The notes below the pieces were generated by a model, which was not told the origin of the DNA, ran no database searches, and saw only the letters and a program-made list of their open reading frames with translations. A stretch of 64,000 bases of DNA from Metabacillus sp. KUDC1714. GTDB taxonomy: Bacteria; Bacillota; Bacilli; Bacillales; Bacillaceae. The position numbers and the translations under genes are program-made. Position 1 is the stretch's first letter. The number at the start of each line of letters is the position of its first letter. Below are positions 15,651 through 52,571 of this stretch, piece after piece. The stretch covers positions 1,248,501-1,312,500 of the forward strand of contig NZ_CP055263.1 of assembly GCF_014217835.1 (NCBI RefSeq), read 5' to 3'.

Positions 15651-15829
15651 AATCTTGCAAGTTTGGCTTTGGATTTTGCAACTTTTTATGTTAATCTTGC
15701 AACTTTAGCTTAGAATTTTGCAAACTTGGGGAAATCTTGCAACTTTGGATGAAATTTTGCAACTTCTGCTCATAATCTTGCAAATTTTCATGATAATCTT
15801 GCAAATTCCGCCCATAATCTTGCAACTAC
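15651..15829. repeat. Array of nine ~21-bp units centred on TTGCAA (locus A)
   Basis: TTGCAA recurs at 15655, 15676, 15697, 15718, 15737, 15757, 15778, 15799 and 15820: spacing 21,21,21,19,20,21,21,21. The unit is roughly ATAATCTTGCAAnTTnnnnnn. It lies between the csbA terminator and the uvrBA SOS operator. Minus-strand in-frame translation gives LQDY-type heptads over part of it, but no open frame covers the array. It is degenerate, so it is not a CRISPR array. Confidence 0.85.
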
Positions 15830-15852
15830 TCCATCCTTTACCTTCAACCAAA

Positions 15853-15878
15853 GAAAAAAGAGCACCACCAGGTAGCTC
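15853..15878 (-). terminator. csbA terminator
   Basis: Stem GAGC-ACC / GGT-GCTC with one bulged base, followed by T6 on the minus strand. The TTGCAA array begins about 25 bp past its T-run. Confidence 0.7.
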
Positions 15879-15921
15879 CCATCTCTCTATTAAGTATATC
15901 TACTTTTGACGATACTCAAAC

Positions 15922-16155
15922 CTATTTCTTCCTTATTAACTCTGCTTTCATTTTTCGCGCATATAAATATCCTGCGACAAGTGAGATAATGTCCAATGCA
16001 ATGATAAGCGGATCGTCTGTAAATCCTCTTACATATGAAGCTATAAGTAGAGCCGCTGTTAAGGATGTACCAACATAGTGGTTATAGCACACTCTAGTAA
16101 AGAGGATAACGAGTAAAAACGGAAGGAATAACGCTAATATAACTTTTAAAACCAT
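15922..16155 (-). CDS. csbA: Small membrane protein CsbA
   Basis: A 77-residue DUF2198 membrane protein with two or three hydrophobic stretches (LKVILALFLPFLLVILFTRV, SLTAALLIASYVRGF, LIIALDIISLVAGYLYARK). Sequence and location directly upstream of uvrBA match B. subtilis CsbA, a sigma-B-controlled protein of unknown function. I saw no convincing sigma-B promoter in the 33-bp gap before it. It is separated from uvrB by a terminator and a repeat array. Confidence 0.92.
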   Translation of the reverse strand: MVLKVILALFLPFLLVILFTRVCYNHYVGTSLTAALLIASYVRGFTDDPLIIALDIISLVAGYLYARKMKAELIRKK

Positions 16156-16188
16156 TATTGATCTCCTATTCGAAAAATAGTTTGGATG

Positions 16189-16629
16189 TTACAGAGAAAG
16201 GTTGTAGAAAAATACAGCATCCTCTTTCACATAGCCTAACTGTTCATAAAGAGCTTGAGCCTTTGTATTATCCTTTGTTGTTTCTAAAAGAATTCCAGCA
16301 GCTTTTGTTTCTAAAGCAAACTCTTTTGCCTGATTCATTAATGCTTTACCAACACCATGGCGACGATATGTTTCGGCTACGAATAAATCATTAAGCAGCC
16401 ATTTACGTTTCATACCTACTGATGTGAAAATGGGATACAGTTGAACAAACCCCATTGGACTTTCTCCATCCATTGCTAGAAAAATAACGGATTCATTAAA
16501 TCTCATACGTTCTTCAATAAAGGTCTTTGCTCCTTCAAGATCAGCTTGCTTGCCATAAAAAATTCTGTACTCATTAAATAAGGTTGACACAAGATCTATC
16601 TCTTTCAAAGCTGCACGAAAAATTTTCAA
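16189..16629 (-). CDS. GNAT-family N-acetyltransferase
   Basis: A 146-residue acetyltransferase. Acetyl-CoA motif A is LNDLFVAETYRRHGVGKALMNQAKEFA near 84-110, and the GNAT C-terminus TKDNTKAQALYEQLGYVKE follows. Substrate cannot be told. It is on the same strand as csbA, 33 bp away, and may be co-transcribed with it. Confidence 0.88.
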   Translation of the reverse strand: MKIFRAALKEIDLVSTLFNEYRIFYGKQADLEGAKTFIEERMRFNESVIFLAMDGESPMGFVQLYPIFTSVGMKRKWLLNDLFVAETYRRHGVGKALMNQAKEFALETKAAGILLETTKDNTKAQALYEQLGYVKEDAVFFYNLSL

Positions 16630-16713
16630 CTAGCATCCCTCGCTTCAATTTAAAACTATGTATGAATTCACAAATAATCATACCATGTTCTATTTTATAA
16701 AGACTATTAAATT

Positions 16714-16740
16714 AAAAAGGCTAACTCCGAAGAATTAGCC
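16714..16740 (-). terminator. prfC terminator
   Basis: Stem GGCTAA / TTAGCC followed on the minus strand by T5, just after the prfC stop. Confidence 0.85.
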
Positions 16741-16747
16741 ATAAACA

Positions 16748-18334
16748 TTATTTTTGTGATGTGACACCTTGGTAGTCATTCTCTTCTAAAAGATCAACTA
16801 ACTCAATTTCCTTTTGATTTTCTAGGAAGTATCTTAGTGTAAATTCATTTTCAAAAAGAACAGCATAGGCACCAAAACGGTCGCGGACTAGCATGCTTCT
16901 TGAATCGAAGAAACGTTTTTCAAACTTTTCACTTTTAATCCATCGAGGAATTCGTTCCCCAAGTGATGTGAACTCGATATCGACATTGTATTCAGCCTTC
17001 ATCCGGTATTCAAACACTTCAAACTGGAGCTGACCAACTGCACCAAGGATCATTGAATCATTTAGTTCCTGTCTAAATAACTGAATGGCACCTTCTTGAA
17101 CAAGCTGTTCAATTCCTTTTCTGAATTGCTTCGACTTCATGACGTTTTTCGCTTGAACTCGTTTAAATAGTTCAGGTGGAAATTGTGGGAGCTCTTCATA
17201 ATGATACTGCCCTTTTCCTTCTATTAACGTATCCCCGATTTGATAAATATTTGGATCATAAATTCCAATGATATCTCCAGGATAAGCTTCATCCACCGTA
17301 TCACGGTCTTTTGCCATGAAGGCTTGTGTTTGGTTCAGCTTAATCGTTTTATTTGTACGACTTAGGTTTACACTCATTCCACGCTCAAACTTACCTGAAC
17401 ACACACGGAAAAAGGCAATACGATCACGGTGAGCCGGGTTCATATTCGCTTGAATCTTGAAGATATAGCCTGAGAATTGATCCTTTTCTGGTTCTACCAA
17501 GCCCTGGTCTGTTTTACGTGGCTGTGGCTGTGCAGCAAATTGTAGGAATGTATCAAAAAAGGTTTGTACACCAAAGTTAGCTAAAGCACTACCAAAAAAG
17601 ACAGGTGTAAGCTCGCCTTTTTGAACACGCTCAGTTGTAAACTCATTTCCAGCCTCTTCAAGGAGTTCGATTTCACCTAATGTATCTTGATAAACAGGTT
17701 CATCTGCTAATCCATGGTTGGCAATTTCACTGATAGGGAAAACTTCCTCTTCCTCATCACCTTTAAAACGGACAAATTGATCATTAAAACGATCGTAAAT
17801 TCCTAAAAATCGTTTTCCACTACCAACCGGCCAATTCATTGGGTATGACTCGATCCCAAGTACTTCTTCTATTTCAGAAAGAAGCTCTAATGGCTCTCTT
17901 CCTTCACGATCTAACTTATTAATAAACGTAAAAATTGGAATACCTCTCATGCGACAAACCTTAAAAAGCTTAATCGTTTGCGGCTCAACACCCTTTGTCG
18001 AATCAATAATCATGACTACACTATCAACCGCTGTTAATGTACGATACGTGTCCTCACTGAAATCTTCATGTCCAGGTGTATCCAAAATATTTACATGAAA
18101 CTCATGATATGGAAAGCTCATTACACTTGATGTAACAGAAATTCCACGTTTTTTCTCAATTTCCATCCAGTCAGATGCAGCATATTTACCAGTTTTCTTT
18201 CCCTTTACTGTCCCAGTAGAACGAATAATCTGACCAAAATATAATAACTTCTCTGTTAACGTCGTTTTACCAGCATCAGGGTGAGAAATGATAGCAAACG
18301 TACGTCGTTTATTTATTTCCTGTTGTAAGCTCAT
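16748..18334 (-). CDS. prfC: Peptide chain release factor 3
   Basis: A 528-residue translational GTPase that recycles RF1/RF2 after termination. G1 SHPDAGKTT is near residue 19, G3 DTPGHEDF near 90 and G4 NKLDR near 144; the C-terminal RF3 domain runs through [20 protein letters not shown] set the start at ATG 18334 ([11 protein letters not shown]), with AGAGGT upstream; the longer frame to 18397 adds 21 residues with no ribosome site. A single-gene unit with its own terminator. Confidence 0.97.
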
Positions 18335-18431
18335 TAGCAATACCTCTTTTAAATAAATTCGTGTTTCAAATATACTATAAAGATAAGGAAAGAACAATTT
18401 CTATATAGATGGAAATTGTTCTTTGAAACAG

Positions 18432-18455
18432 AAAAAAACAGGAGCTCGCCCCTGC
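18432..18455 (-). terminator. Terminator after small membrane protein gene
   Basis: Hairpin CAGG / CCTG extended by partial pairing in the GC-rich loop, then T7 on the minus strand. Confidence 0.65.
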
Positions 18456-18467
18456 TTTTCATCTTTC

Positions 18468-18635
18468 CTACCCTTTTTTTCTTTTATAATTGCTGATAGG
18501 ATCTCCATCAGAGTAGAGCATATCCCATGAACTTTTGTAGCGATATTTTTTCCCCCATACATGGATTAGCATTCTCAATCCTGTAATAAGGCTTAAAAGT
18601 AAAAGCGCGACAATTAAAAACAAGATTTCATTCAT
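18468..18635 (-). CDS. Small membrane protein, unknown
   Basis: A 55-residue protein: one transmembrane helix (ILFLIVALLLLSLITGLRMLIHVW) followed by a basic tail (GKKYRYKSSWDMLY...YKRKKG). ATG 18635 is chosen because GGGGGA precedes it; the frame extends ten codons upstream without a ribosome site. I do not recognise the family. It has its own terminator and lies between prfC and rbsC. Confidence 0.6.
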   Translation of the reverse strand: MNEILFLIVALLLLSLITGLRMLIHVWGKKYRYKSSWDMLYSDGDPISNYKRKKG

Positions 18636-18743
18636 ATCATTTCCCCCAATCATCCTTGTAGCCATATATATGTTTTCGCGCTAAAAACATGCGTAAAAGT
18701 TTTTGTTGGGGGGGAAATTTATTTCTTGATAATGAACTGACAT

Positions 18744-19730
18744 TTACGCAGCACTACTACCTCTTAAACGATCTAATAACACTGCCGCTACAATCACACC
18801 GCCTTTTACAACTAATTGCCAATAATAATTAACATCCATAAGTGTTAATCCATTACTAATCACACCCATGATGAGAACTCCAATAATCGTCCCTTGAATT
18901 CTACCTTTTCCTCCAGTTAAGCTTGTTCCACCTAAAATAACTGCAGCAATGGCATCTAGTTCATACATTTGTCCTGCAGTTGGCTGCCCAGAATACAATC
19001 TTCCTGCTAATACAACGCCACCTAAACCAGCTAATAAGCCACTAATGGAATAAACATTTATTAATGATTTTTCAACCTTGATTCCTGTTAAGCGTGCTGC
19101 TTCTTCGTTTCCACCAATTGCATAAATATGACGGCCAAACATTGTATATTTCAAAACAAAAAACATCACACCATAGACAAGAAGCATGATATAGATCGGT
19201 GTAGGTACTCCTAAAATAGCTCCACCACCAATAAATTTAAAGGTTTCATCTTGCAAAACAATTGGATAACCACCACTTATGACATAAGCAAGACCACGAA
19301 CATATGTAAAGCTCCCTAATGTAACGATAAATGAAGGTAGTTTGGTTTTTGCTGTAAAAAAGCCATTAATAAGTCCTACTGCATAACCTACCGCTGCACC
19401 TGATAGCATCGCAATAATTGGGTTGACTCCTGCAGCAGAAACCATTACAGAGATAACGCCAGATAAGGCAACTGTCGAACCAACTGATAAATCAATTCCA
19501 CCTGTTAAAATAACAATCGTCATTCCTGCTGCTAATATTGCAATAATCGAAACCTGCTTTAGAACATTTAACATATTTGCTGTATCTAAAAAGTTTGGTG
19601 CTGTAAACGAAAGAACAACACATAATAATAATAGAATCATAATCATGCCAAGACGATTCCATAAAGCATGAAAGATTTTGCCTAATTGAATGCTTTGAGA
19701 TGGTGAAGCGGTTTGAGTATTTACCCTCAT
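18744..19730 (-). CDS. rbsC: Sugar ABC transporter permease, RbsC-type
   Basis: A 328-residue permease with about ten hydrophobic segments and the family motif GGIDLSVGSTVALSGV near 83. IGGNEEAARLTGI near 205 and AVILGGTSLTGGKGRI near 270 are also typical of ribose-family permeases. It forms the membrane channel with RbsA and RbsB, six bases after rbsA. No rbsK or rbsD is present nearby, so the sugar may be ribose or a related pentose/hexose. Confidence 0.9.
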   Translation of the reverse strand: MRVNTQTASPSQSIQLGKIFHALWNRLGMIMILLLLCVVLSFTAPNFLDTANMLNVLKQVSIIAILAAGMTIVILTGGIDLSVGSTVALSGVISVMVSAAGVNPIIAMLSGAAVGYAVGLINGFFTAKTKLPSFIVTLGSFTYVRGLAYVISGGYPIVLQDETFKFIGGGAILGVPTPIYIMLLVYGVMFFVLKYTMFGRHIYAIGGNEEAARLTGIKVEKSLINVYSISGLLAGLGGVVLAGRLYSGQPTAGQMYELDAIAAVILGGTSLTGGKGRIQGTIIGVLIMGVISNGLTLMDVNYYWQLVVKGGVIVAAVLLDRLRGSSAA

Positions 19731-19736
19731 TTTTCT

Positions 19737-21293
19737 TTACTCCCCTCTAGTAGCTAAGTGCATAATTTTTTCCTGTGTAGCTTCATCTCTCGACAGTTCT
19801 CCCGTTAATTTCCCTTCACTCATGACAAGGATTCGATCGCTAACCCCTAGAACTTCTGGCAGCTCAGAAGAAATCATTAATACTGCTAAACCTTCATCTG
19901 CAAGCTTTGAGACAATTTTGTGTATTTCAGTCTTTGCACCAATATCAACACCTCGCGTTGGTTCATCGAGGAGTAAAACCTTTGGTGAAATAGATAACCA
20001 TTTAGCAATAACTACCTTTTGTTGATTACCACCGCTTAGGTTTGAGACCTGCTGTTCGGGAGAGGCTATTTTTATATTTAGTTCTTGGATAAACTGGTCG
20101 GCACTGGCATTAACCTGTTTCCAATTAACAATTCCTGATTTGGAATGCCTTTTCAATTCGGCCATTAAAAGATTTTCCTTTACTGACATCGACAAGAATA
20201 AACCTTGTTCTTTCCGACTTTCAGGAACATGGGCAATTCCATTTGCCATCGCATTAATTGGCGATTTTATGTTTACAAGCTTTCCATCAACGTATATTTC
20301 TCCACTCTTCAATGTCGATACACCAAATAGTGCTCTAACCAGCTCTGTTCTGCCTGCACCTACAAGTCCTGCTAAACCAACAATTTCACCAGGATAAATT
20401 TTGAATGAAACATCCTTTACTATGGTGTTGTCAGATACATTTTTCAGCTCAAGAACTGGGGTAGCCCCATATGAAAGTGGCGCCTCAGAGACCTTTGTTC
20501 GATTAAATAAATCTTTTAGATCACGACCTACCATAAGCTTGACTAAGTGGTCGGGATTTGTCTCTTCAATTGGTCCGCTTCTGATCCACTCCCCATCTCG
20601 TAATACAGTGTATCGATTAGAAATCTTAAAAATTTCGTCCATCCGATGCGAAATATAAACGATCGCAACTCCTTGTTTTTTCAAATCGGCAATAATTTGA
20701 AACAGCTTCGAAATCTCTTTATCTGTTAGCGAAGCTGTTGGTTCATCCATAATTAGAACCTCTGCCTTAAAGGATAACGCTCGTGCGATCTCGACCATTT
20801 GTTGTTGTGCAACACTCAAGGTTGATACGAGTTGACGGGGACTTAGATTAGAGCCCATCGAATCTAATACCTTTTGTGCACGTTCATGTACCTCATCCCA
20901 TTTGACCATTCCTAGTCGGTTTCTCGGAAAAGTTGATCCCATTAAAATATTTTCACTGATTGTTAGATTAGGAGAGAGATTTAACTCCTGGTGAATTACA
21001 CTTATTCCTTTGTTCCTTGCATCAACAGGATCCTTCCATGATATAGGTTGACCTTTTAAATAGATCGTCCCGCCATCATGATCAGGAGAATGGATCCCTG
21101 CAAGGATTTTCATAAACGTTGATTTCCCAGCACCGTTCTCACCCATTAATGCGTGTACTTCACCTGGATAAAGCTCCATTCTCACATTGTTTAATACCTT
21201 TACTCCTGAGAAGGTTTTACTTATTCCTTCCATATTCAGTACCGGCATTTTTATCGAGTGTTGCTTTTTTATTACCTTTTCCTTAATCGCCAT
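19737..21293 (-). CDS. rbsA: Sugar ABC transporter ATPase, RbsA-type
   Basis: A 518-residue duplicated ABC ATPase. The N-terminal domain has GENGAGKST near 52, LSVAQQQMVEIA and MDEPTASL; the C-terminal domain has a degenerate P-loop GLVGAGRTEL near 308, LSGGNQQKVVIAKW and LDEPTRGVD. This pattern is that of RbsA/MglA/AraG. A roughly 15-residue N-terminal extension (KEKVIKKQHSIKMP) precedes the usual start. Between rbsB and rbsC. Confidence 0.92.
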   Translation of the reverse strand: MAIKEKVIKKQHSIKMPVLNMEGISKTFSGVKVLNNVRMELYPGEVHALMGENGAGKSTFMKILAGIHSPDHDGGTIYLKGQPISWKDPVDARNKGISVIHQELNLSPNLTISENILMGSTFPRNRLGMVKWDEVHERAQKVLDSMGSNLSPRQLVSTLSVAQQQMVEIARALSFKAEVLIMDEPTASLTDKEISKLFQIIADLKKQGVAIVYISHRMDEIFKISNRYTVLRDGEWIRSGPIEETNPDHLVKLMVGRDLKDLFNRTKVSEAPLSYGATPVLELKNVSDNTIVKDVSFKIYPGEIVGLAGLVGAGRTELVRALFGVSTLKSGEIYVDGKLVNIKSPINAMANGIAHVPESRKEQGLFLSMSVKENLLMAELKRHSKSGIVNWKQVNASADQFIQELNIKIASPEQQVSNLSGGNQQKVVIAKWLSISPKVLLLDEPTRGVDIGAKTEIHKIVSKLADEGLAVLMISSELPEVLGVSDRILVMSEGKLTGELSRDEATQEKIMHLATRGE

Positions 21294-21312
21294 ATGTAAT
21301 CACCCCTTGTTA

Positions 21313-21355
21313 GGGACAGTCCACACAGGCAGTCCCCACAGGCGGGGACTGTCCC
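21313..21355. repeat. REP-like hairpin between rbsB and rbsA
   Basis: GGGACAGTCC at 21313 and GGACTGTCCC at 21346 are exact inverted copies around a 23-bp loop that carries a partial extra copy. In the rbs message this hairpin lies directly after the binding-protein gene, where such structures often protect the upstream part. Confidence 0.65.
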
Positions 21356-21370
21356 CTTTGGTTTAAAGAC

Positions 21371-22342
21371 TTACCACCCCTGATAAGAATCTAATGTATC
21401 CTGAGTGACAAGCTCAACAGGTACTTTAATAAGCTCTTCGACATCTTCCCCATTTTTTACTTTCATGCCAATTTCAACTGCCTTTTTCACCATTTCGCTA
21501 GGTGATTGAGCTGAAGTAGCCATGATCGTGCTTCCTTCTTTTGCCATGGCATCGGCTGCTTCGGGAGCACCATCAACGCCAACTACGAAAAACTCATCCT
21601 TACGTCCAGCTTGCTCTTGAGCAATTTCTACCCCGATTGCTTCAGGATCATTGATTGCAAAAACAGCGTCAATTGATCCAGAAGGATTTGCTTGTAAAAT
21701 ACTTTCCATAACAGTTAATGCTTTTTCACGGTTCCCCTCACCATTTTGCTTCGCAACTACTTTAATTTCAGAATCTTTAATTACATCCTCAAATCCTTTA
21801 ATACGATCGGCAACTGCTGAAACTGGAGGTCCATCAATAATGACAATGTCTCCTTTGCCATTTAATTGTTCAACCACATACTCACCAGCAAGTTTACCAG
21901 CTTGGTAGTTATCTGAAGTGACTGTTGCATCAACGCCCCCTTCAGCATTTGTATCAACTGCGATTACTGGTATTCCTGCTCCCTTTGCTTGTTGAACAGC
22001 GGCAGCGATCCCCTTCGTATCAACAGCATTTAATAAAATGACATCTACCTCTTTTGTAATAAAGTCTTCAATTTGCGAGGTTTGTTTTGCAAGATCATAT
22101 TCAGCACTTTCAACAAGAACCTCAGCACCTAATTCCTTCCCTGCTTCCTCAGCACCTTTTCCCATTGCAACGAAAAATGGATTTGCCAAAGTACCTACAG
22201 TTAATCCGATTTTTAACTGATCATCACTTTTTTTCTCGCCAGTGCCTTCGTTTGATGATTCACTAGCACTACTACAAGCTGACATTAAGGCCATTACAAT
22301 TGTTGACACTAGCACTAATAAGCTTTTTACATTCTTTTTCAT
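21371..22342 (-). CDS. rbsB: Sugar-binding lipoprotein, RbsB-type
   Basis: A 323-residue periplasmic-binding-protein family 4 protein. The signal peptide ends in lipobox LMSAC, so Lgt would anchor it to the outer face of the membrane. The binding fold shows KIGLTVGTLANPFFVAMGKGAEEAG near 44 and VIAVDTNAEGGVDATVTSDNYQAG near 125. It captures the sugar for RbsA/RbsC. First gene of rbsBAC; preceded by a promoter and a cre site. D-ribose is the likeliest ligand but allose or autoinducer-2 relatives cannot be excluded. Confidence 0.9.
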   Translation of the reverse strand: MKKNVKSLLVLVSTIVMALMSACSSASESSNEGTGEKKSDDQLKIGLTVGTLANPFFVAMGKGAEEAGKELGAEVLVESAEYDLAKQTSQIEDFITKEVDVILLNAVDTKGIAAAVQQAKGAGIPVIAVDTNAEGGVDATVTSDNYQAGKLAGEYVVEQLNGKGDIVIIDGPPVSAVADRIKGFEDVIKDSEIKVVAKQNGEGNREKALTVMESILQANPSGSIDAVFAINDPEAIGVEIAQEQAGRKDEFFVVGVDGAPEAADAMAKEGSTIMATSAQSPSEMVKKAVEIGMKVKNGEDVEELIKVPVELVTQDTLDSYQGW

Positions 22343-22368
22343 TTGTGAACCCCCTAGAAAATTAAAAA

Positions 22369-22428
22369 ATTATAATACCGTTTTTTTACGAACTACAACA
22401 TTGGCAATCTAATCTGTTAACGCTTACA
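22369..22428 (-). promoter_or_regulatory. rbsB promoter with cre (CcpA) site
   Basis: On the minus strand TTGTAG (22398-22393) and TATAAT (22374-22369) are 18 bp apart, 27 bp before rbsB. A full-match cre, TGTAAGCGTTAACA, lies at 22428-22415, just upstream of the -35, indicating catabolite control by CcpA with HPr-Ser-P. Confidence 0.7.
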
Positions 22429-22585
22429 AAACTATAACTATTTCACCTCCTTAAATCATTCAATTATGATTCAGTTAAAAGTGCTGTTGAGTAGTTGTTA
22501 CCGTTTACATATTTTTCTCAAAGATTAACTCACAGGATGATTATTATTGGTTGTTTTAAATTCAATATTGCTTATTATTGACTAC

Positions 22586-22605
22586 TTTTGATTGATTTTG
22601 ATTAT
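22586..22605. promoter_or_regulatory. Possible DeoR-type operator (10-bp direct repeat)
   Basis: TTTTGATTGA is followed directly by TTTTGATTAT. Direct repeats of this size are typical operators of DeoR-family regulators, and one is encoded next door. It is about 245 bp before rbsB. The rest of the 577-bp gap is AT-rich and shows no gene. Confidence 0.35.
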
Positions 22606-22831
22606 ATTACGCTCATTTACAATTGTCAACACATTAGGAAAATTCAGTAAATTATGTGAGGATACTAAATTTTTAGCTTTTACGACTAGTACACAACCTG
22701 TGTTTTAATAAGAATTTCTGAGCAAATCTCTTTCAAATTCTGATAAAACGATTTTTCAAAATATTTATTTTTGTGAAATTATCTATGTAAAAAAGAATTT
22801 TTTTCGAGTTGTTGCATAATGAAGGCAAAAT

Positions 22832-22883: not shown

Positions 22884-22919
22884 AAATTTAAACGGTTTAT
22901 GTAAAACAATGAAAGCTTT

Positions 22920-24760: not shown

Positions 24761-24767
24761 TACATTT

Positions 24768-35996: not shown

Positions 35997-36111
35997 ATAT
36001 TATCTTAAAAGAGAAGAATACATTCAAAAAAAGACTACCCCTTTGTATCGACCTCACCTCAACCATATACTTTGACGGCTACTCTTGCCATCCACCCTAC
36101 TATTATAATTC

Positions 36112-36159
36112 TGTCACTTTAGACGGTATTTTGCACCTTTTTTAAGTACTATTTTGCAC
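36112..36159 (+). repeat. 48-bp repeat, left copy (TGTCACTTTAG...TTTTGCAC)
   Basis: Begins TGTCACTTTAG and contains two ATTTTGCA blocks 23 bp apart. A second 48-bp copy, 39 of 48 bases identical, lies inverted at 39780-39827. A hairpin (AAACCCA / TGGGTTT, 36171-36210) follows just inside it. The gap 35951-36471 otherwise shows no convincing gene; the 80-codon minus frame at 36215-36457 is not recognised. Confidence 0.75.
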
Positions 36160-38620: not shown

Positions 38621-39431
38621 TTAATGTCTTTGATCAATTTCCTGCTCTAGTACGTTGAGAAACTCTCGTTGTTGGAGAAGCATTTGAATATACATTTTTA
38701 GAGTAACCAAATGGCTTTGATACAGTGTTTTCTTAAATGGATTCCGTTTTGCTGCCTCTTTTAACTTCAATGCCTTTTCGAAAAACCAACCATATGATCT
38801 CTTTCCTCCTAGACCATGCATCTCCTTAGCTAATTCATCAGTTTGTACCTTCAACACGTCATCAGAAGTAGGATAGGTGAGTAAAGTCTTTAATGATATA
38901 GGAGAATATAAATTACTAAAAACCCCTTTATATTCAGGGAAAACTTGATCAAGAATGGTTTGAAACTGTAGTTTAAGTTGAACATAATTGCGGGTTAATG
39001 AATCGTGTTGTCTACTCAAATTTCTCAAGTTCATGGTTTGAACACTCTTACGATGAAACGCTGTTAAGTCTTCTTTGTAGTACAGTTCACACAAATGTTT
39101 CGCATCAGCAGGATCCGACTTCACTTTTCGAAGTCTACTTTTTTTCGTTTCGTAAGAAACAACCGGATTTACTAAGTAGTAGGTAATTTTTCTTTCCTCA
39201 AGATACTGTAAAATCGGTTCGTGGTAATGACCTGTAGATTCAAAAATGATGACTGGTTCAGCGTCAGCGTGTCGTTCTACCTCTTTATAAAATACATAAA
39301 AATCACACAGTCCATTAGTGTCATGCTTAAACTTAAAGGTCTTTCCATAGTCCATAGGGATGCTTTCTTGCCAGGAAAGCTTGAACTTGGCTTTCTCCTT
39401 TTGCGACATCCAGGCCAATCACTGGATCCAT
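38621..39431 (-). pseudogene. IS110-family transposase, frameshifted and truncated
   Basis: The true N-terminus begins at ATG 39431 (MDPVIGLDVAKGESQVQAFL), carrying the first Asp of the DEDD RuvC-like site. A 7-bp tandem duplication, TCCATAG twice at 39344-39357, shifts the frame; removing one copy joins HPYG to KTFKFKH. The rest reads on through FESTGHYHEPI and SDPADAKHLCELY but stops at EIDQRH near 38621. The C-terminal transposase_20 domain with its catalytic Ser, about 110-140 residues, is missing. Hence a dead remnant. Opposite strand to the three preceding genes. Confidence 0.88.
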
Positions 39432-39719: not shown

Positions 39720-39768
39720 AAAAAGTCCAATTTCTCAATTTTAATGCTGAGAAATTGGGCTTTTTTAT
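39720..39768. terminator. Strong hairpin inside the right 48-bp repeat
   Basis: Stem of about 15 bp (CCAATTTCTCA / TGAGAAATTGG core) bordered by A6 on one side and T6 on the other, so it can terminate in both directions. Two smaller hairpins (GCCTAT/ATAGGC and CATCCAGAT/ATCTGGATG) lie at 39639-39685. Confidence 0.7.
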
Positions 39769-39779
39769 ATTTACTTATA

Positions 39780-39827
39780 GTGCAAAATAACGCTTAAAAT
39801 ATATGCAAAATAACTCCTAAAGTGACA
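39780..39827 (-). repeat. 48-bp repeat, right copy (inverted)
   Basis: Reverse-complement counterpart of 36112-36159: same length, 39 of 48 identical, with both ATTTTGCA blocks again 23 bp apart. Like the left copy it has a hairpin on its inner side. Confidence 0.75.
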
Positions 39828-39847
39828 TATAATTCTAGTAATCTTTC

Positions 39848-44483: not shown

Positions 44484-44496
44484 CACACACCATTTC

Positions 44497-45509: not shown

Positions 45510-45601
45510 ATAAATTCCCTCTTTTTAATTTAGTCAATGTTTTTTCAACTGTGTTGCGAAATACAAGAAAATTGGACCATATTGGATGTGGCTCACACCA
45601 T

Positions 45602-45615
45602 TTAAAACGCTTACT
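45602..45615 (-). promoter_or_regulatory. Weak cre-like site before the TRAP/KDG operon
   Basis: AGTAAGCGTTTTAA on the minus strand matches 12 of 14 cre positions, 93 bp before the first gene. Confidence 0.3.
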
Positions 45616-45772
45616 TTTTAGTTTTTAATATACATAGTTTCAATCATCAGCGGATGAATTGCTGATTGAAAAACGTAGAGTAAGAGAGTCTACATTAATA
45701 ATTGAATTCTGAATTTAATAGTGTAAGCAGCTCATGCAATCAGAAATATATTTTAATATTCCGAAATGTGAT

Positions 45773-45960
45773 ATGTAACATTTCACACTTTACATGTTAT
45801 GAACTAATATTATAGCTTTCTAGTTTATTCGTCAATTCTTTTATAAAAAATTTAAATAAAAGTTTATTATTATTGTCATCTATGTTATTAACTTGCATAA
45901 GAAATTGACTATATTTATCAAATTATCCTATAATTTATTAAAAGATGTTACATGTAACAT
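45773..45960. promoter_or_regulatory. GntR operators in the divergent intergenic region
   Basis: ATGTTACATGTAACAT (45945-45960) is a perfect 16-bp palindrome, 29 bp before the GntR start. Related pieces ATGTAACAT (45773) and TTACATGTTA (45790-45799) lie nearer the TRAP operon. A single regulator binding both would control operon and itself. Confidence 0.65.
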
Positions 45961-45988
45961 GTTAATTATAACTATTAGGAGGGTTACT

Positions 45989-46678
45989 TTGGCCGAAATG
46001 ATTGAAACTTCAGCTCTTGCTACACAAATATATAAAGTACTTCGAAAAGAAATAATTAGTGGGATTTTTGCCCCCGGAGATAAATTAGATATAAATGAAT
46101 TAGCAAATAAATATGGCGTTAGCCGATCACCCGTAAAAGAAGCAGTTAATCAATTAGTACACGAAGGTTTAATTGAAATATTACCACGGAAAGGAACTTA
46201 CATAACCCAATTACGTTTCAAAGATTGTATGGAAGCATTAGATGCTCGATTTATGGTTGAAACATGGGCCGCAGCACAGGCAGTTAAGCTTGTATCAGAT
46301 GAACAGATAGGTAATTGGAACCAAATAATTAAAAAAATGGATGCATTATTGGTCGTACAACCCTTTTCGTATGAAGCATACAGTAAACTTGATATGGAGT
46401 TTCATCAATTATTAGTGCAATGGACTATGAATCAAAAGGTTCAAAACATTTATTATTCAATTAATCCACTTATTTCATTGGCACGAGTTGGTTACAGTGA
46501 GGTTTTTGAACACAGCTTAAAAAGACATAAAGATCATCATAATATGCTAGAAGCTTTAAAAAATCGTGATCTCTCCTCCTTAATTGATGCATTGCAACAA
46601 CACAACCATACCTTAAAAGAGGACACTAAGTTACATTGGAATGAACAATTGTATGGACCAATTGATGAATCCAATTAA
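45989..46678 (+). CDS. GntR-family regulator (FadR/FCD type)
   Basis: About 229 residues. The N-terminal winged helix is typical (ELANKYGVSRSPVKEAVNQLVHEGLIEILPRKGTYI, near 32-67), followed by an all-helical FCD ligand domain (DARFMVETWAAAQAV; later HHNMLEALKNRDLSSLIDALQQH). Start TTG 45989 follows GGAGGG by six bases; the longer frame to 45893 reads through the palindromic operator and has no ribosome site. Divergent from the TRAP/KDG operon, like uronate regulators of the UxuR/KdgR kind. Confidence 0.9.
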   Translation: MAEMIETSALATQIYKVLRKEIISGIFAPGDKLDINELANKYGVSRSPVKEAVNQLVHEGLIEILPRKGTYITQLRFKDCMEALDARFMVETWAAAQAVKLVSDEQIGNWNQIIKKMDALLVVQPFSYEAYSKLDMEFHQLLVQWTMNQKVQNIYYSINPLISLARVGYSEVFEHSLKRHKDHHNMLEALKNRDLSSLIDALQQHNHTLKEDTKLHWNEQLYGPIDESN

Positions 46679-46841
46679 TATCACCCTTTACTTTTTTATA
46701 AAGGGACATATCTTCTAAACAGGGAAACAATTCCATGATAAATTTGAATATACCTATCTTATTAGAGCGGTGGGATAAAATTGATCGTTTCGATAATTGC
46801 CAATCAATCCAATGATCGACTCCTTTTTCCTTCTACAAATT

Positions 46842-46881
46842 AAAAAAGATCCCCTTTGCTTATTAAATACCTAAAGGGGAC
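46842..46881 (-). terminator. mtl operon terminator
   Basis: GTCCCCTTT / AAAGGGGA stem with a loop of about 15 bases, then T6 on the minus strand, directly after mtlD. Confidence 0.8.
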
Positions 46882-46891
46882 CTAATTCTTT

Positions 46892-48028
46892 TTAATATAA
46901 TGCTACTACTTTCTCAACTAACGGATGATCCAGCGTAAGTCCTGTAATTTCACTAAAAGCAGGTCCAACACCTTTTTCTTGAACCTTCTCCTTAAGTGTT
47001 AAGGATTCCTGATCTTCCTCAGAAACAAATTTTAGCGCAGCAACAATGACATTTACTAAGTGTTCTGGTACTTGATCAAATTCGTTCATGTATTCAAGCG
47101 CAGGGGCAACTAAGCGATCCTTTGCACCCAATTTACGAAGTGGTGCTCTTCCTACTCGTTGTACATCATCGATGATATTTGGATTTGCGAATCTACCGAT
47201 AATTTTTTCGATATATTTCTGGTGTTCGTCTGCCTGAAAGGCATATTTTGCGATAAGTACTTTACCCGTTTCTTCAAGGGTACCCAATACTGCCTGCTTA
47301 ATCTTTTCATCACTAATTGTATCGGCAATCGTTGTGTGTCCGGCCAAATTTCCAAGATAAGCTGTTGCAGCATGTCCTGTATTCACGGTAAATAACTTCC
47401 GCTCAATATAAGCTTGCAGATTTTCTACAAAAAGAGCTTCCTTAATATCAGGCTTTGTCCCTTTTAATTCAGTAGAGTCTATAACCCACTCGTGGAAGGG
47501 TTCAACTAAAACGTCTAAAAGCTTTTCATTATGCTGGTTAGGGACAATCCGATCTACAGCTGAATTCGGGAAGCCTACATGCTCCTGCACCCATGCTGCT
47601 TCATCTGCGGTTAATTTTTCGAGAACATGTTTTTTAAGCTCGCTGCTTCCGCCAACCATATTTTCACAAGCAATAATATTAACAGGCTGACTATTAGCTT
47701 GCATGCGCTTTTTAAGTCCTTCAGCGATAAGAGGTGCAACAAATTTTAAAATATGCGGGCCTACAGCTGTTGTTACTAGATTGGCTGTTGAAATTGCTTG
47801 AATCACAGCTTCTGGAGCTTGCCCACTGTTTATTCCTGATACACCTTTAACTTGAAATGCTTGTTTTTCTTCATTAGCAAGGATGACACGATAGGCCTTT
47901 TCTTTGTTTATTTCATCGATTACTGTTTCATTCACATCAACAAATTCCACTTCATAGCCAGATTGATGTAATAAAAGACCGATAAAGCCTCTCCCGATAT
48001 TTCCAGCGCCAAAATGAGTCGCCTTCAA
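46892..48028 (-). CDS. mtlD: Mannitol-1-phosphate 5-dehydrogenase
   Basis: A 378-residue NAD enzyme that makes fructose-6-P from mannitol-1-P. The Rossmann motif THFGAGNIGRGFIG is at residues 4-17 and the catalytic K-x-N-x-H pattern in ERKLFTVNTGHA near 212. Start ATG 48028 is one base past the mtlF stop. Last gene of mtlA-mtlR-mtlF-mtlD. Confidence 0.97.
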   Translation of the reverse strand: MKATHFGAGNIGRGFIGLLLHQSGYEVEFVDVNETVIDEINKEKAYRVILANEEKQAFQVKGVSGINSGQAPEAVIQAISTANLVTTAVGPHILKFVAPLIAEGLKKRMQANSQPVNIIACENMVGGSSELKKHVLEKLTADEAAWVQEHVGFPNSAVDRIVPNQHNEKLLDVLVEPFHEWVIDSTELKGTKPDIKEALFVENLQAYIERKLFTVNTGHAATAYLGNLAGHTTIADTISDEKIKQAVLGTLEETGKVLIAKYAFQADEHQKYIEKIIGRFANPNIIDDVQRVGRAPLRKLGAKDRLVAPALEYMNEFDQVPEHLVNVIVAALKFVSEEDQESLTLKEKVQEKGVGPAFSEITGLTLDHPLVEKVVALY

Positions 48029-48029
48029 A

Positions 48030-48461
48030 TTAGTTCACCTCGCTTAGAAGCTGAAGAATTTCCTCTTTCGACTTTGCTTGGACTAATTTCTCAACATTTT
48101 CTTCCTCTGAGCAGACAATCGCAATTTTTGAAAGAATATCTAAATGCTCGTTGCCCTTACCAGCAATACCGATTAAGATTTTAACAATATTCCCGCCGCC
48201 AAAATCAACACCTTCTGGAGCTTGGATAACAGAAAGTCCTGATTCTATGACAGCCTCCTTCGCTTCTTCCGTTCCGTGTGGGATTGCTATGAAGTTCCCC
48301 ATGTATGTTGAAGATAACTCTTCTCTTTTTAGCATTTGCTCAATATATTCTTGCTTTACATACCCATTATCAACTAAGATTTGACCAGTTGCTTTAATTG
48401 CTTCTGTTTTGTTTTCAAGGTTTTTATTTAATACAATGTTTGCTTCATTTAAAATACTCAT
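48030..48461 (-). CDS. mtlF: PTS mannitol EIIA component
   Basis: A 143-residue EIIA of the fructose/mannitol family. The phosphorylated histidine is His62 in IAIPHGTEEAKE. It accepts phosphate from HPr and passes it to the EIIB domain of MtlA. Three bases separate it from the mtlR stop. Confidence 0.96.
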   Translation of the reverse strand: MSILNEANIVLNKNLENKTEAIKATGQILVDNGYVKQEYIEQMLKREELSSTYMGNFIAIPHGTEEAKEAVIESGLSVIQAPEGVDFGGGNIVKILIGIAGKGNEHLDILSKIAIVCSEEENVEKLVQAKSKEEILQLLSEVN

Positions 48462-48464
48462 GTT

Positions 48465-50570
48465 TTATTCACTCCTTAAATTTTGGACAAAGTTTGTAAA
48501 ATATTTTTGGCTTATATATTGAATTAAGCTACTTTTAGCAGCTGTTTCAAAGTTATGAACACTCTCTTTTGATTCGATAATGCTTGCACTTATAAAGCTC
48601 ATAATCTCTAATTCGTTAGGATCTGCTTGTTCTGGAGCTAATAATAAAAGGATTCTGTTCACATTGATTATCTCGTTGTCCATCGCTTTTAATGTCATTG
48701 GTGAGTTCAAATCAATTGTATGAAAGCTAGCTCGAGCAACAGCATCACTTCTAGTATGAAACAATGCAAGCTTTGTTCCAGGTATCGCTAATCCGCCAAT
48801 ACGCTCACGATGCAGTAAGGCCATCACAAGCTCTTTCCCGTTATGAACAAGCCCTTTACCTACTAGCATTTCACTTACTTTGTTTAAGATACCTTCTATC
48901 TTTAACGTTTGATCTATCTGAAATGCCTCCATTACCTCTAATAAATCGAGAAGTAATTGAGATTGACCTGTAAAAGATTTGTAAGCCTCATAGCTTACAT
49001 ACATGTCTGCTTTTTCATACTTGTTATCATTCACTTGATTATTTGTGATTGTAACTCCCTTTTGATGAATAAAGTCCTTTATCATGTCTAATTGATCAGG
49101 TGTTAGTATCGGACTAACAAGCAAATAGTCGACTGAAATTTCCTCAATCGGAATCGTAGAAAGGATGATATCATATTTCTTTACATCCATATCCTTTAAC
49201 TCAAATGCAGAGATATTTTTCAGTTCTGCAAGGTCAGGGATTTGGTTTTTTATTTGCGTTGCTAGCATCTTTGATGTACCAATACCACTTGAACAAATAA
49301 TTAATACCTTTAATTTTGCCTTCATTATCCGCTCATTGATCGCAGCTCCAAAGTGGAGAACGAGATAGCCGATTTCTTCATCAGGTACATCATCAAATGG
49401 AAAAGCATTTGCTACTGCTTGTGTGACGATATCAAAAAGCTCACGATAATCTCTTTTGATTTCTACAAGGAGTGGATTTGTAATTTTCATCCCTTGCTTT
49501 ATGCGATAAATCGCAGGTTGTAGATGTGCTAATAACCCTTGAAATAACGATGAGTCTTGCTTTAGATTTTTTCCAGCAATGTGTTCAACCTGTTCGATTA
49601 AACGTTGCACAAGATAAGCAATTTCAACATTTTCATCCTGAATATCGATTTTTCCTTCGAAGCGGAGTTTTGCTCCCCTTAAATGCATAGTAATATAGCC
49701 AATTTCATCTTCTGGAATTGCTAATTGAAAGGTTTCTTCAAGCCTTTGGGCGATTTCTTGTGAAAAATGAAATTCCTTGGAGCTTTTGAGCTGTGAAAGG
49801 TATTCATGTTTTATTGTGATGTTTTCACCACGCTGAATTCGTTCAATAGCTAACGCTAGATGGACAACTAATCCAACGTAAGAGCTATCAGCCAAAGGAT
49901 AAGGTAACTGTGAATTAATTTGATTAATTAAATTCTCAATGATAATAAGCTTTTCCTTTTGAACGAGACCGAGTAATCGTTCTGATATGGAATCAATTTT
50001 ATTCGTCGATTTTTTTTCAATACTGCCTTTTACCATTTTTAAAAAATCAGTCACATCAAATTGGTCAGAGATGAGACTACTTATTGCCCTTCTTTTCGCT
50101 GCCTCAGAACCAATAAGTTCAATCCCGTACCCTCTTCTTCTTATGAGTGTTAAGCCATATTCTTGAACAAATGGTTCCATTTTGTCGAGATCATGACTAA
50201 TTGTTGCTGTTGTTACACCTAATTCATTTGCTAGTGTTAGCAACTTAATTGGCTCCTGATGATCTAACAGGGTGCAAAGAGCAACCATCAATCTCTCATC
50301 TGGGGTATATTCCTTATAATCTTGCTTTTGAATTGCTAGTCTTAATTCATGCAAATTTGCTTTATTTCCAACGATCTTAATCCCAATACCGGCACGCTTG
50401 ATTAATTCTAATTGAAACTCTTTTAGAATCGACTCGATATTTTTCAAATCACGATGGACCGTTCTTTCGCTGACATCGATTTGCTCAGCGAGTTCTTTAA
50501 TTGTCACTTCCTGGTTCGCCTCATCCATTAAAAATTGCAAAATGAGACGTTCTCTCGCCGAAACAATCAT
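48465..50570 (-). CDS. mtlR: Mannitol operon activator MtlR
   Basis: About 701 residues: an N-terminal HTH (ITIKELAEQIDVSERTVHRDL) and second wHTH (LGVTTATISHDLDKM), two PRD domains (about 200-410, with conserved His in GLVVHLALAIERI, YITMHLRGA, GLLAHL, YLVLHFGAA), an EIIB-like domain (VLIICSSGIGTSKMLA) and a C-terminal EIIA-like domain (LALFHTRSDAV). Phosphorylation by PTS proteins sets activity. ATG 50570 is preferred over TTG 50579; the ribosome site is weak. Confidence 0.95.
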   Translation of the reverse strand: MIVSARERLILQFLMDEANQEVTIKELAEQIDVSERTVHRDLKNIESILKEFQLELIKRAGIGIKIVGNKANLHELRLAIQKQDYKEYTPDERLMVALCTLLDHQEPIKLLTLANELGVTTATISHDLDKMEPFVQEYGLTLIRRRGYGIELIGSEAAKRRAISSLISDQFDVTDFLKMVKGSIEKKSTNKIDSISERLLGLVQKEKLIIIENLINQINSQLPYPLADSSYVGLVVHLALAIERIQRGENITIKHEYLSQLKSSKEFHFSQEIAQRLEETFQLAIPEDEIGYITMHLRGAKLRFEGKIDIQDENVEIAYLVQRLIEQVEHIAGKNLKQDSSLFQGLLAHLQPAIYRIKQGMKITNPLLVEIKRDYRELFDIVTQAVANAFPFDDVPDEEIGYLVLHFGAAINERIMKAKLKVLIICSSGIGTSKMLATQIKNQIPDLAELKNISAFELKDMDVKKYDIILSTIPIEEISVDYLLVSPILTPDQLDMIKDFIHQKGVTITNNQVNDNKYEKADMYVSYEAYKSFTGQSQLLLDLLEVMEAFQIDQTLKIEGILNKVSEMLVGKGLVHNGKELVMALLHRERIGGLAIPGTKLALFHTRSDAVARASFHTIDLNSPMTLKAMDNEIINVNRILLLLAPEQADPNELEIMSFISASIIESKESVHNFETAAKSSLIQYISQKYFTNFVQNLRSE

Positions 50571-50696
50571 TGCTATCAACTCGTTTCAAAGTGAGTTATT
50601 GACATAGTTTAATTATAAATGTGAATGATTGGTTGTTTCAAAGGAATGTAAAGTTGATTTTTTCAGATGGGTTGCTGACATTTTTTAATTGTTTGT

Positions 50697-50711
50697 GGTG
50701 CCTGTCACCAC
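50697..50711. repeat. REP-like palindrome between mtlA and mtlR
   Basis: GGTGCCTGTCACC, a short palindrome of the same style as those at 4673 and 21313, directly followed by the 0A-box sequence at 50717. Confidence 0.45.
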
Positions 50712-50716
50712 CCGAA

Positions 50717-50728
50717 TTTTGTCGAATA
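50717..50728. promoter_or_regulatory. 0A-box sequence upstream of mtlR
   Basis: TTTTGTCGAATA, 147 bp before mtlR and downstream of mtlA. A mispaired hairpin with T5 at 50741-50787 probably ends mtlA transcription just before it, so mtlR may have its own promoter here. Confidence 0.4.
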
Positions 50729-50794
50729 ACAAACCTCACACTAAAAAGGAGGACGCATCTACACAAAGTAGCAGCATCCCCCTTCTTCAATTCG

Positions 50795-52225
50795 TTATTT
50801 TAATTCGTTTATGATCTCTTCATATCTTGGACTGTTAAGGAAGTTATCAACTGAAACATGATGTGCATTAGGCAGTTTCGCTTTTGCACGATCAGTTAAG
50901 TCCTTATGTGTGATCACGATATCAGCATCATTTGGGATGTTATTAATAGAAGTATTTGTCACCTCTACATCTTTTATGTCTGCCTTTTGGACTTTATTGC
51001 GTAGGATAGAAGCACCCATCGCACTAGAACCCATACCCGCATCACATGCGAAAATAATTTTATTAACATTGTTAAAATCAAATTCTTCAGCAGTTTTTAC
51101 AGGTTCTGCTGTTGTTAATGTTTCACTTACTGAGCTCTTTTTACCTTTTAATGCTTCCATTTTTGCTGTTGCATCTGTTAAATCTTCTTCTTTTTGCTTG
51201 CTAGCTTTTAAGATTAATGAAGCAACTGCAAATGATACAGCTGTAGCCACAATTACACCTAGTAGTACACCAGTATAGTTACCTCTTGGTGTCATAGCAA
51301 GTAAAGCAATAATACTTCCTGGTGAAGGACTTGCAACTAAGCCTGCATTAAAGATTGAGAACGTGAAGACCCCACTAATTCCACCAGCAATCGCTGCAAG
51401 GATTAACATTGGTTTCATAAGAATATACGGGAAGTAGATCTCATGAATACCACCTAAGAAGTGGATAATAACTGCTCCAGGAGCTGTTTGTTTTGCAGAG
51501 CCTCTTCCAAAGAACATGTAAGCTAATAAAATCCCTAACCCAGGACCAGGGTTTGATTCTAGTAAGAAAAGAATTGACTTGCCAGCTTTTGAAGCTTGCT
51601 CTATTCCAATCGGACTTAAAATACCGTGGTTAATGGCATTGTTTAGGAATAGTACCTTTGCTGGTTCGATGAAAATACTTGCAAGTGGTAATAAACCTGC
51701 ATCAAAAATTGCTTGAACCGCACCAGCTAGTACTTTATTTATTCCTTCTACAACAGGGCCGATCCCCATTAGTGCTGCTAATGTTAACAAAGCACCTAAA
51801 ATACCAGCTGAAAAGTTATTCACTAGCATTTCAAAACCTGATCTAACTTTATCCTTTAATAAGCCATCAAGCTTTTTGATTAAATATCCACCAAGTGGAC
51901 CCATAATCATTGCACCCAAGAACATTGGGATTTCTGCGCCAACGATTACCCCCATTGTTGCAGTCGCACCAACGACACCACCACGAACATCATAAATCAT
52001 CTTACCACCTGTGTATCCAATTAAGAGTGGCAACAGATACGTAATCATTGGACCTACTAATGTTGCGAGTTGTTCATTTGGCGTCCATCCTGTAGGAATG
52101 AATAATGCAGTAATAATTCCCCATGCGATAAATGCTCCTATATTTGGCATAATCATGCCGCTTAAATAACTTCCGAAACGTTGAATCTTAACGCGGAAGT
52201 CACCTTTATTTTGGTTTGTTTCCAT
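50795..52225 (-). CDS. mtlA: PTS mannitol EIICB component
   Basis: A 476-residue mannitol permease: EIIC membrane domain (about 1-340, FGSYLSGMIMPNIGAFIAWG at the start and GGIHEIYFPYILMKP near 265) and EIIB domain with phosphocysteine in IIFACDAGMGSSAMGA near 397. EIIA is supplied separately by MtlF. ATG 52225 follows GGGGTG; an in-frame GTG lies inside that site. The order mtlA-mtlR-mtlF-mtlD is that reported for Geobacillus stearothermophilus, unlike B. subtilis. Confidence 0.97.
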   Translation of the reverse strand: METNQNKGDFRVKIQRFGSYLSGMIMPNIGAFIAWGIITALFIPTGWTPNEQLATLVGPMITYLLPLLIGYTGGKMIYDVRGGVVGATATMGVIVGAEIPMFLGAMIMGPLGGYLIKKLDGLLKDKVRSGFEMLVNNFSAGILGALLTLAALMGIGPVVEGINKVLAGAVQAIFDAGLLPLASIFIEPAKVLFLNNAINHGILSPIGIEQASKAGKSILFLLESNPGPGLGILLAYMFFGRGSAKQTAPGAVIIHFLGGIHEIYFPYILMKPMLILAAIAGGISGVFTFSIFNAGLVASPSPGSIIALLAMTPRGNYTGVLLGVIVATAVSFAVASLILKASKQKEEDLTDATAKMEALKGKKSSVSETLTTAEPVKTAEEFDFNNVNKIIFACDAGMGSSAMGASILRNKVQKADIKDVEVTNTSINNIPNDADIVITHKDLTDRAKAKLPNAHHVSVDNFLNSPRYEEIINELK

Positions 52226-52258
52226 GTAAGTCACCCCTTTTGATATCTTGACTTAATA

Positions 52259-52312
52259 ATAAAGCGATTACAGTCTTTAAACAATTTAAACTAAATACGA
52301 TTTTGTCGAATA
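52259..52312. promoter_or_regulatory. mtlA upstream region: 0A box and weak cre
   Basis: TTTTGTCGAATA (52301-52312) matches the Spo0A box 76 bp before mtlA. ATAAAGCGATTACA (52259-52272) matches cre at 12 of 14 positions. On the minus strand the 0A box lies between possible TTGTCA and TCGTAT promoter hexamers. Confidence 0.4.
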
Positions 52313-52420
52313 GGATGTTGACAAGATTAATTTTGGAAAGAAGTAGGTATTTTATGCGCTTTTTTACTTTGTACACAGGGAAACGAACTCTATTTTCTTA
52401 TGAATTACACACGAGATGGT

Positions 52421-52519
52421 GATAATTTTGCAGATTCTAGTATTAATTTTGCAGATTCAGATCATAATTTTGCAACTTTTACTATAAATTTTGCAAATTT
52501 GGTTCATAATTTTGCAAAT
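52421..52519. repeat. Array of five exact 21-bp-period units centred on TTGCAR (locus B)
   Basis: TTGCAG/TTGCAA begins at 52428, 52449, 52470, 52491 and 52512, each exactly 21 bp apart, unit about ATAATTTTGCAAATTnnGnTC. As at 15651 it lies just past a terminator (of the DHA2 gene) and before the next promoter region (mtlA). Minus-strand in-frame reading gives LQNY heptads but is broken by stop codons, so it is not coding. Confidence 0.88.
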
Positions 52520-52534
52520 ACTCAATTTCACCAT

Positions 52535-52571
52535 AAAAAAAGAGTTAAAGCTCAATAAAAGCTCTAACTCT
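52535..52571 (-). terminator. Terminator of the DHA2 exporter gene
   Basis: Stem AGAGTT-AGCT / AGCT-AACTCT with small mismatches, followed by T7 on the minus strand. Array B starts about 16 bp further on. Confidence 0.85.

Follow-up and report, generated by a model that had tools for sequence, protein, structure and literature searches.

Among the described systems that come closest to the element presented here are the sites of RefZ, a Bacillus protein made early in sporulation; the available part of the source (PMC6657595) describes RefZ-binding motifs (RBMs) as nearly palindromic, numbering five per chromosome and lying near oriC at positions conserved in the genus. We analysed a stretch of 64,000 bp from Metabacillus sp. 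KUDC1714 (“the window”, bases 1248501-1312500 of a single 5.76-Mb contig) and report on arrays, i.e. rows of direct-repeat units following one another each 21 bp, two of which lie in the window. As far as that part of the source goes, the arrays resemble RBMs in being dispersed and may also do so in leaning to the origin, as seen in the two genomes best covered, the window's own (G000) and G013; they differ in forming direct-repeat rows, 20 of them in genome G018, with several spellings, which we call dialects, and with a leader box. The near palindrome that characterises RBMs was not found in the units, which are direct repeats; palindromic symmetry is confined to the TTGCAA core of dialect 1.

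DNA uptake sequences of Neisseria and Pasteurellaceae also are dispersed short motifs with clade dialects and ties to terminators; they occur, however, as single or inverted-pair copies by hundreds, and not as arrays with a 21-bp period. The ram sites of RacA were compared by their description, and in the available portions of the RacA descriptions neither a 21-bp array nor a Spo0A-box leader is mentioned. The TAACTGA direct repeats of Beggiatoaceae are likewise short, intergenic and present in many sets per genome; the accessible part of the source (PMC4679880) presents them as one heptamer that, in the genome described there, is placed mostly just before start codons, and describes neither dialects nor a link to terminators. 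Open-access literature searched by topic and by motif letters gave no description of the arrays, most subscription papers being outside this scope; six papers contained one of six literal motif strings, and the four listed among them concern SARS-CoV-2 (three) and fish environmental DNA (one).

Architecture and occurrence of the arrays

We propose, tentatively and at somewhat less than even probability, that the arrays are dispersed cis elements cooperatively bound by a putative sequence-specific protein that co-evolves with them, that they occupy gaps at the 3′ ends of genes, and that they perhaps form a sporulation-linked organiser of the origin region. The two arrays of the window are as follows:

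15651..15828, minus strand: array of dialect 1 (CAA), 9 units; AAGTTGCAARATT on the minus strand, which is the strand of both flanking genes
52424..52520, minus strand: array of dialect 1 (CAA), 5 units, steps all 21 bp

Both are composed of AAGTTGCAARATT sites with a TTGCA core each 21 bp, separated by variable spacers, and the steps of the first run 21, 21, 21, 19, 20, 21, 21 and 21 bp. Because TTGCA-N16-TTGCA pairs number 18 in the window (both strands) against 0.43 expected, with 0 of 100 shuffles reaching 18, the arrays are not due to chance. A known Rfam RNA family was rejected, the search at gathering threshold having given no match across either array. An original prediction, made on the window, had placed TTGCA arrays just past intrinsic terminators at four places; those at 15651 and 52424 stand, the ones at 36112 and 39780 are assigned to transposon ends (see below), and a single repeat class covering all four places was rejected.

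A sequence model built from 25 arrays had matches in 19 of 21 Metabacillus genomes at E ≤ 0.01, and ten arrays were found in G000. In the genus search, scoring was applied to 150 first-look candidates from each genome; of the 16 matches in G000 13 were listed, all of them situated within its ten arrays, and of the 24 in G013 15 were listed. Array counts per genome are lower bounds, and neither of these two genomes represents a complete census. The 132 fetched loci, in which genes were taken as mechanical open reading frames (ORFs), yielded 119 arrays (121 before two split arrays were merged), distributed over 74 sites and 17 genomes. An array was defined by at least three units with at least 8 of 10 motif positions each; since detection demanded the T and G of TTG, the invariance of these letters is uninformative. 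Below the threshold were 21 of the 132 loci, including the uvrB regions of G003, G005, G006, G016 and G019 and the loci of G002 and G007. In 538 kb of mononucleotide-shuffled control sequence no array appeared. Arrays with either neighbour in common were assigned to one site, and 16 of the 23 multi-genome sites share both neighbours with the first member; arrays and orthologous pairs are not independent, and site-level figures stand beside array-level ones.

The unit reads AAGTTG-NNN-RATT plus 8 variable bp, and an array typically has four or five sites of 13-14 bp, the leader unit counted. In the full set 340 of 390 steps were of 21 bp (20-22 and 41-43 bp allowed), as were 19 of 22 matches in G000 with spacing of 18-33 bp allowed; the G000 match at 4554827, with 32-bp spacing under the first pattern, is not an array. 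Spacing by 21 bp, i.e. two turns, places all units on one face of the helix. It should be added that in G004 an array with its flank is tandemly repeated three times at G004:C11:72300-74384 (L332) and occurs twice in tandem, 285 bp apart, at G004:C6:188300-191800 (L338).

Twenty-one base pairs also equal seven codons, and the unit reads KL-x-D-[YF] in one frame, with dialect 4 alternating AAC and AAT, as would suit the coding of a heptad-repeat peptide starting at the leader ATG. Only 40 of the 119 arrays are open in that frame, however, stops occur at a rate of 5.4% per codon, and 20-bp steps (23 of 390) break the frame; a coding sequence was rejected on these grounds, and we consider it next to impossible.

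Motif conservation and dialects

Across 32 orthologous pairs within clades, the ten motif positions differed in 81 of 1329 cells (6.1%), against mismatches of 24.9% in spacers (176 of 708) and 17.8% in flanks (651 of 3667). Selection of arrays by motif favours motif conservation and counts against taking this contrast at face value; the fair test is offered by unit positions 6 and 7, which were unscored in detection and mismatched in 5 of 265 cases (1.9%, p = 6e-21 vs spacer). The motif is held while the spacer drifts, and sequence-specific binding at each unit would be the natural cause.

The letters NNN of the unit come in four spellings, CAA (dialect 1), A[CG]A (dialect 2), ATA (dialect 3) and AA[CT] (dialect 4), and the dialect of a genome was assigned by the majority of its arrays. 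CAA arrays make up 10 of 10 in G000, 9 of 10 in G012, 10 of 13 in G013, 11 of 11 in G010 and 3 of 3 in G016; A[CG]A, with some GGA or GTT, is carried by G018 (20 of 20), G008 (7 of 7) and G017 (8 of 9), AA[CT] by G001 (6 arrays), G004 (10) and G011 (7), and ATA by G015 (3 of 3), G005 (3 of 4), G006 (1), G020 (1) and G003 (1 of 3). Two dialects stand side by side in G013, G003 and G005. The uvrB tree (20 genomes, without G020) places each of the groups CAA, A[CG]A and AA[CT] in a single supported clade, G014, which is free of arrays, being sister to the last; ATA is spread over two clades, one of G015, G002 and G007 and the other of G003, G005, G006 and G019, and CAA arrays persist there. At the uvrB locus of the latter four genomes degenerate CAA arrays were recognised by eye. 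The dialects are inherited mostly, but not cleanly, and the CAA relics fit replacement over time. Furthermore, arrays of all four dialects occupy one and the same gap in nine genomes, where its two neighbours, a Polyketide_cyc-like gene (weak, E = 2.7e-4) and a NERD-domain gene, are both orthologous; a tenth genome (G010) has only the NERD gene in common. In the mechanism that we propose, the specificity of the protein would have shifted between clades and the sites would have followed, giving rise to the dialects.

Dialects could also be the subfamilies of a propagating repeat family that lands in 3′ gaps, older members decaying as newer ones spread. Such an explanation would accommodate the 51 of 74 sites recorded in a single genome (a figure inflated, as not every genome was examined at every site), the coexistence of dialects in three genomes, the degenerate arrays at uvrB and the tandem copies of array and flank in G004 (both by eye), as well as the spacer letters shared in units 1 and 4 by arrays at two different sites, G018:C8 (L234) and G018:C34 (L241), again by eye. 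It agrees less well with spacers that mostly differ between arrays within one genome (by eye), with a motif kept in place while spacers drift, and with the same gap bearing different dialects in different clades; moreover, no ends or target duplications were noticed, no systematic search having been made for them. We regard a repeat family, one of the two main rivals along with the roadblock considered below, as unlikely. Of the terminator-seeking insertion element suggested by the original prediction no insertion signature was noticed, although this, too, was not searched for systematically. As a separate observation, the G018:C8 and G018:C34 arrays look like diverged copies of one array.

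The Spo0A-box-like leader

Numerous arrays are preceded by the letters TGTCGAA, an exact copy being present in 53 of 119 arrays, compared with 0.33% of control windows; by dialect, exact matches occur in 3 of 47 (dialect 1), 26 of 35 (dialect 2), 5 of 12 (dialect 3) and 17 of 22 (dialect 4). Of the 79 arrays in which at least 6 of 7 letters match, 61 have the box 24 bp ahead of their first detected unit, and a second, weaker box 10 bp upstream of the leader is present in 55 of 119 arrays vs 0.5% in the control. The letters that come after the leader mostly track the dialect (TGACAGAT in dialect 2, TGATAGAT in dialect 3, TGAACGAT or TGATGGAT in dialect 4), and therefore the box overlaps a first unit. 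The leader pattern with 3 mismatches allowed gave 30 matches vs 16 in the reversed control and was not used alone.

According to the available part of PMC3485338, TGTCGAA is the core of the Spo0A box (0A box). The likeness of the leader to this box consists of the core and, often, of the weaker box upstream; the 21-bp units, in contrast, do not match it, and dialect-1 arrays are mostly without it. We predict that the leader is bound by Spo0A. In dialects 2-4, where the first unit often overlaps the leader, binding of the putative protein may be linked to sporulation entry.

Genomic placement of the arrays

The surroundings of the two window arrays comprise the following features:

15854..15881, minus strand: intrinsic terminator belonging to the DUF2198 gene and directed into the first array (by fold)
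15922..16155, minus strand: DUF2198 gene, 3′ end facing the first array
15575..15602, no strand: palindrome upstream of uvrB
13525..15510, minus strand: uvrB, downstream neighbour of the first array
52535..52571, minus strand: intrinsic terminator belonging to the MFS gene and directed into the second array (fold -17 kcal/mol, z -5.98)
52586..54055, minus strand: MFS transporter gene, upstream of the second array
50795..52234, minus strand: phosphotransferase system (PTS) EIIC/IIB gene, downstream of the second array

Each array thus sits between a minus-strand terminator and the next minus-strand gene, uvrB or the PTS gene, at about 25 bp (first array) and about 14 bp (second array) beyond the T-run of the terminator (distances by eye). 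The terminator of the DUF2198 gene, whose product we take to be CsbA-like, was missed by the consensus scan; the hairpin at 15850-15885 has -14.7 kcal/mol and z -4.05. The palindrome, seen by eye upstream of uvrB in the 19 species listed, resembles a LexA/DinR box rather than the terminator.

A terminator points into 88 of the 119 arrays and, by site, into the first member of 50 of 74, while 31 arrays are without any; for pseudo-arrays placed in array-free gaps the value was 32% (82 gaps) or 43% (53 non-divergent gaps). Among co-directional arrays, 48 of 60 had a terminator vs 31 of 57 control 3′ ends (p = 0.005), and by site 22 of 30 vs the same control (p = 0.11). Terminators are script predictions, with cut-offs of -8 kcal/mol and 140 bp for the 88/119 comparison and for loci outside the genus, and of -6 kcal/mol and 160 bp for orientation and co-directional counts. 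The link between arrays and terminators, as originally claimed, holds as a statistic, with the arrays that lack a terminator as its limit. Relative to their neighbours, 60 arrays read with both, 19 against both, 28 lie between convergent genes, 9 between divergent ones and 3 are unassigned. The orientation preference, also part of the original prediction, is borne out by array (60:19) and is weak by site (29 with, 15 against, p = 0.049). Gaps of at least 150 bp in the fetched loci contained an array in 8 of 38 divergent and in 69 of 130 other cases (p = 0.0007).

The original prediction considered that protein-bound arrays might back up the terminator as a roadblock and stop read-through to the next gene. 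The excess of terminators pointing in, the orientation counted by array and the terminators at 9 of 11 loci outside the genus (see below) would be in keeping with this; the 31 arrays without a terminator, the weaker orientation by site and the opposite orientation of the two arrays in G148 (by eye) are not, and read-through control alone would not predict the origin bias described below. We rate a roadblock as rather unlikely. In the reading that we prefer, of dispersed sites for a co-evolving protein, the first view is turned round, and the terminator appears as something that the array stands next to rather than as the reason for the array. Gaps between a terminator and the next promoter would be free and little transcribed, which may be the reason for arrays to lie there; the terminator would then shelter the nucleoprotein array, serving it rather than being served by it.

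Placement before the next gene could also point to upstream activating arrays, read by a regulator of direct repeats about 21 bp apart, for which a LytTR type was considered. Co-directional arrays lie at a median of 149 bp before the next start, and AAAGTTG presumably fits a LytTR half-site. Against this stand the 28 arrays between convergent genes, the 19 reading against both neighbours, and the lack of a common function among the neighbour genes tested (rnr/smpB, prfB, pyrG, uvsE, RNA polymerase delta, fabI, pepA, QueG, SHMT and others). These neighbours are functionally mixed, which argues against a regulon and suits a structural element; we find activation quite improbable.

All 10 arrays of G000 are situated no further than 1.02 Mb from dnaA, the left arm holding 9, and in G013 10 of 13 are so situated, with 8 of 13 on the left arm, this limit having been set after seeing G000. 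Without a distance limit the origin bias had simulated p values of 6e-5 (G000) and 6e-4 (G013), two sites being common to both genomes. For five more genomes (G002, G003, G005, G007 and G015) the origin was placed from presumed mfd-like genes, which are 63-65 kb from dnaA in G000 and G013; among the matches listed, 9 of 14 fell within 1.02 Mb of it (p = 0.035), one G002 match coming from another scan and the G003:C2 and G005:C2 matches not being placed. Together, origin bias and leader suggest a link to the way in which the chromosome is organised when sporulation begins, comparable to the RefZ and RacA sites, and with this bias the most likely role of the arrays would be in organising or anchoring that part of the chromosome.

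Several points weigh against the proposed reading as a whole. The leader is rare in dialect 1 and was not seen in either window array, and it is a short box by which the sporulation link is suggested. Dialects are not clean, CAA being present also in G003, G005 and G019 (a single array) and, as weak arrays, in the neighbours of the ATA species G015, namely G002 and G007. The array system is not essential to the genus, because G009 and G014 had no match to the model in the search of 21 genomes. Apart from the post hoc choice of the origin limit, the three listed main-contig matches of G003 all lie beyond 0.8 Mb of its inferred origin. Finally, the binding protein itself is hypothetical.

A transposon remnant in the window

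The repeats at 36112 and 39780 are the inverted ends of a transposon remnant, which we take to be Tn552-like, and not arrays:

36112..36159, plus strand: left end of the remnant, 48 bp
39780..39827, minus strand: right end of the remnant, inverted, 48 bp
36104..36111, no strand: 8-bp direct repeat TATAATTC, left copy
39828..39835, no strand: 8-bp direct repeat TATAATTC, right copy

The ends have the layout TGTCACTTTA..TATTTTGCA, N14, TATTTTGCA, and the inverted pair, beginning with TGTCA, encloses 3716 bp; its two ATTTTGCA blocks are 23 bp apart, unlike the 21 bp of the arrays. Inverted TGTCA ends with internal repeated sites constitute the likeness to Tn552-like transposons, one confined to 36112 and 39780, whereas the 8-bp flanking repeat, instead of 6 bp, and the absence of such a transposase from the tested ORFs set the element apart. 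The same paired ends were found in G018 (13.9 kb), G019 (13.4 kb) and G002 (5.1 kb), and a single end in G016; the flanking direct repeat is of 6 bp in G018 and G002, and none was found in G019. The elements of G018 and G019 carry an AAA ATPase besides a transposase that combines rve and Mu C-terminal domains; that of G019 has a serine resolvase in addition. The four ORFs tested in the window element (S66 peptidase, DUF6886, GNAT and an IS110 fragment) include no DDE transposase (rve and Mu C-terminal), AAA ATPase or resolvase, and because transposase and ATPase are not among them the element is named a remnant and not a working member. An IS110-type transposase piece lies inside it at 38621-39418.

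The original prediction saw a hairpin at both 48-bp repeats. The one at 39724-39770, adjoining the 39780 end within the element, is indeed terminator-like and strong (-17.9 kcal/mol, z -4.79), and belongs to the side of the cargo genes; its counterpart at 36112 is weak (-4.9 kcal/mol, z -1.49) and part of the end itself. Elsewhere in the window, a large cluster of tRNA genes occupies positions 58085-64000 together with 5S, 23S and partial 16S rRNA, every one of them encoded by the minus strand.

Candidates outside Metabacillus

The 21-bp TTGCAA pattern was present in 8 of 397 genomes of the order, one being the window's own, vs 4 with the reversed control; because the reversed control matched 4 genomes, the count outside the genus is weak alone. 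An exact-pattern contig scan returned 18 stretches, among them M. bambusae (3), Bacillus sp. SA1-12 (1) and two with similar arrays in Ammoniphilus and Cytobacillus; by eye, the other 12 looked like other tandem or coding repeats, and all 7 viral contigs matched looked unrelated. Nine loci of the order-wide scan and two of the exact-pattern scan made up eleven pattern-selected loci, of which 9 are faced by a strong terminator no more than 88 bp away, vs 124 of 660 random points. At eight of the eleven there is overlap with a mechanical ORF (65-471 aa), and the two loci that lack such a terminator overlap the longest of these ORFs, of 225 and 471 aa; membership is questionable for two loci, namely G253 (in the 225-aa ORF) and G393 (a near-identical tandem repeat). 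In G148 the two arrays have, by eye, the opposite orientation to the terminator.

Single loci outside the genus include a four-unit CAA-dialect array in the distant genus Ammoniphilus (sp. YIM 78166, 7455-7537, L056), 13 bp past a terminator, and in another genus a 17-unit 21-bp array of GTTGCAATAAC type at G377:C1:141114-141371 (L187). A second such array at G377:C1:3961880, i.e. at 3.96 Mb of ~4.1 Mb, is possibly near the origin.

Biological significance

In its boldest form, the interpretation would make the arrays a new kind of chromosomal landmark of Bacillales: origin-region 21-bp arrays headed by a Spo0A operator and read by a rapidly evolving, centromere-like protein that underwent at least three changes of specificity inside a single genus while the sites of one position were kept. 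We consider this form possible but unlikely. If true, the arrays would show that in bacteria, too, a DNA-binding protein and the sites dispersed for it can co-evolve in the manner known from centromeres. A spelling that changes in concert across clades, and does so at one shared position in nine species, offers a natural experiment on the joint change of specificity in the putative protein and all of its chromosomal sites. Moreover, if the leader is a Spo0A operator, an undescribed chromosomal element would be added to early sporulation.

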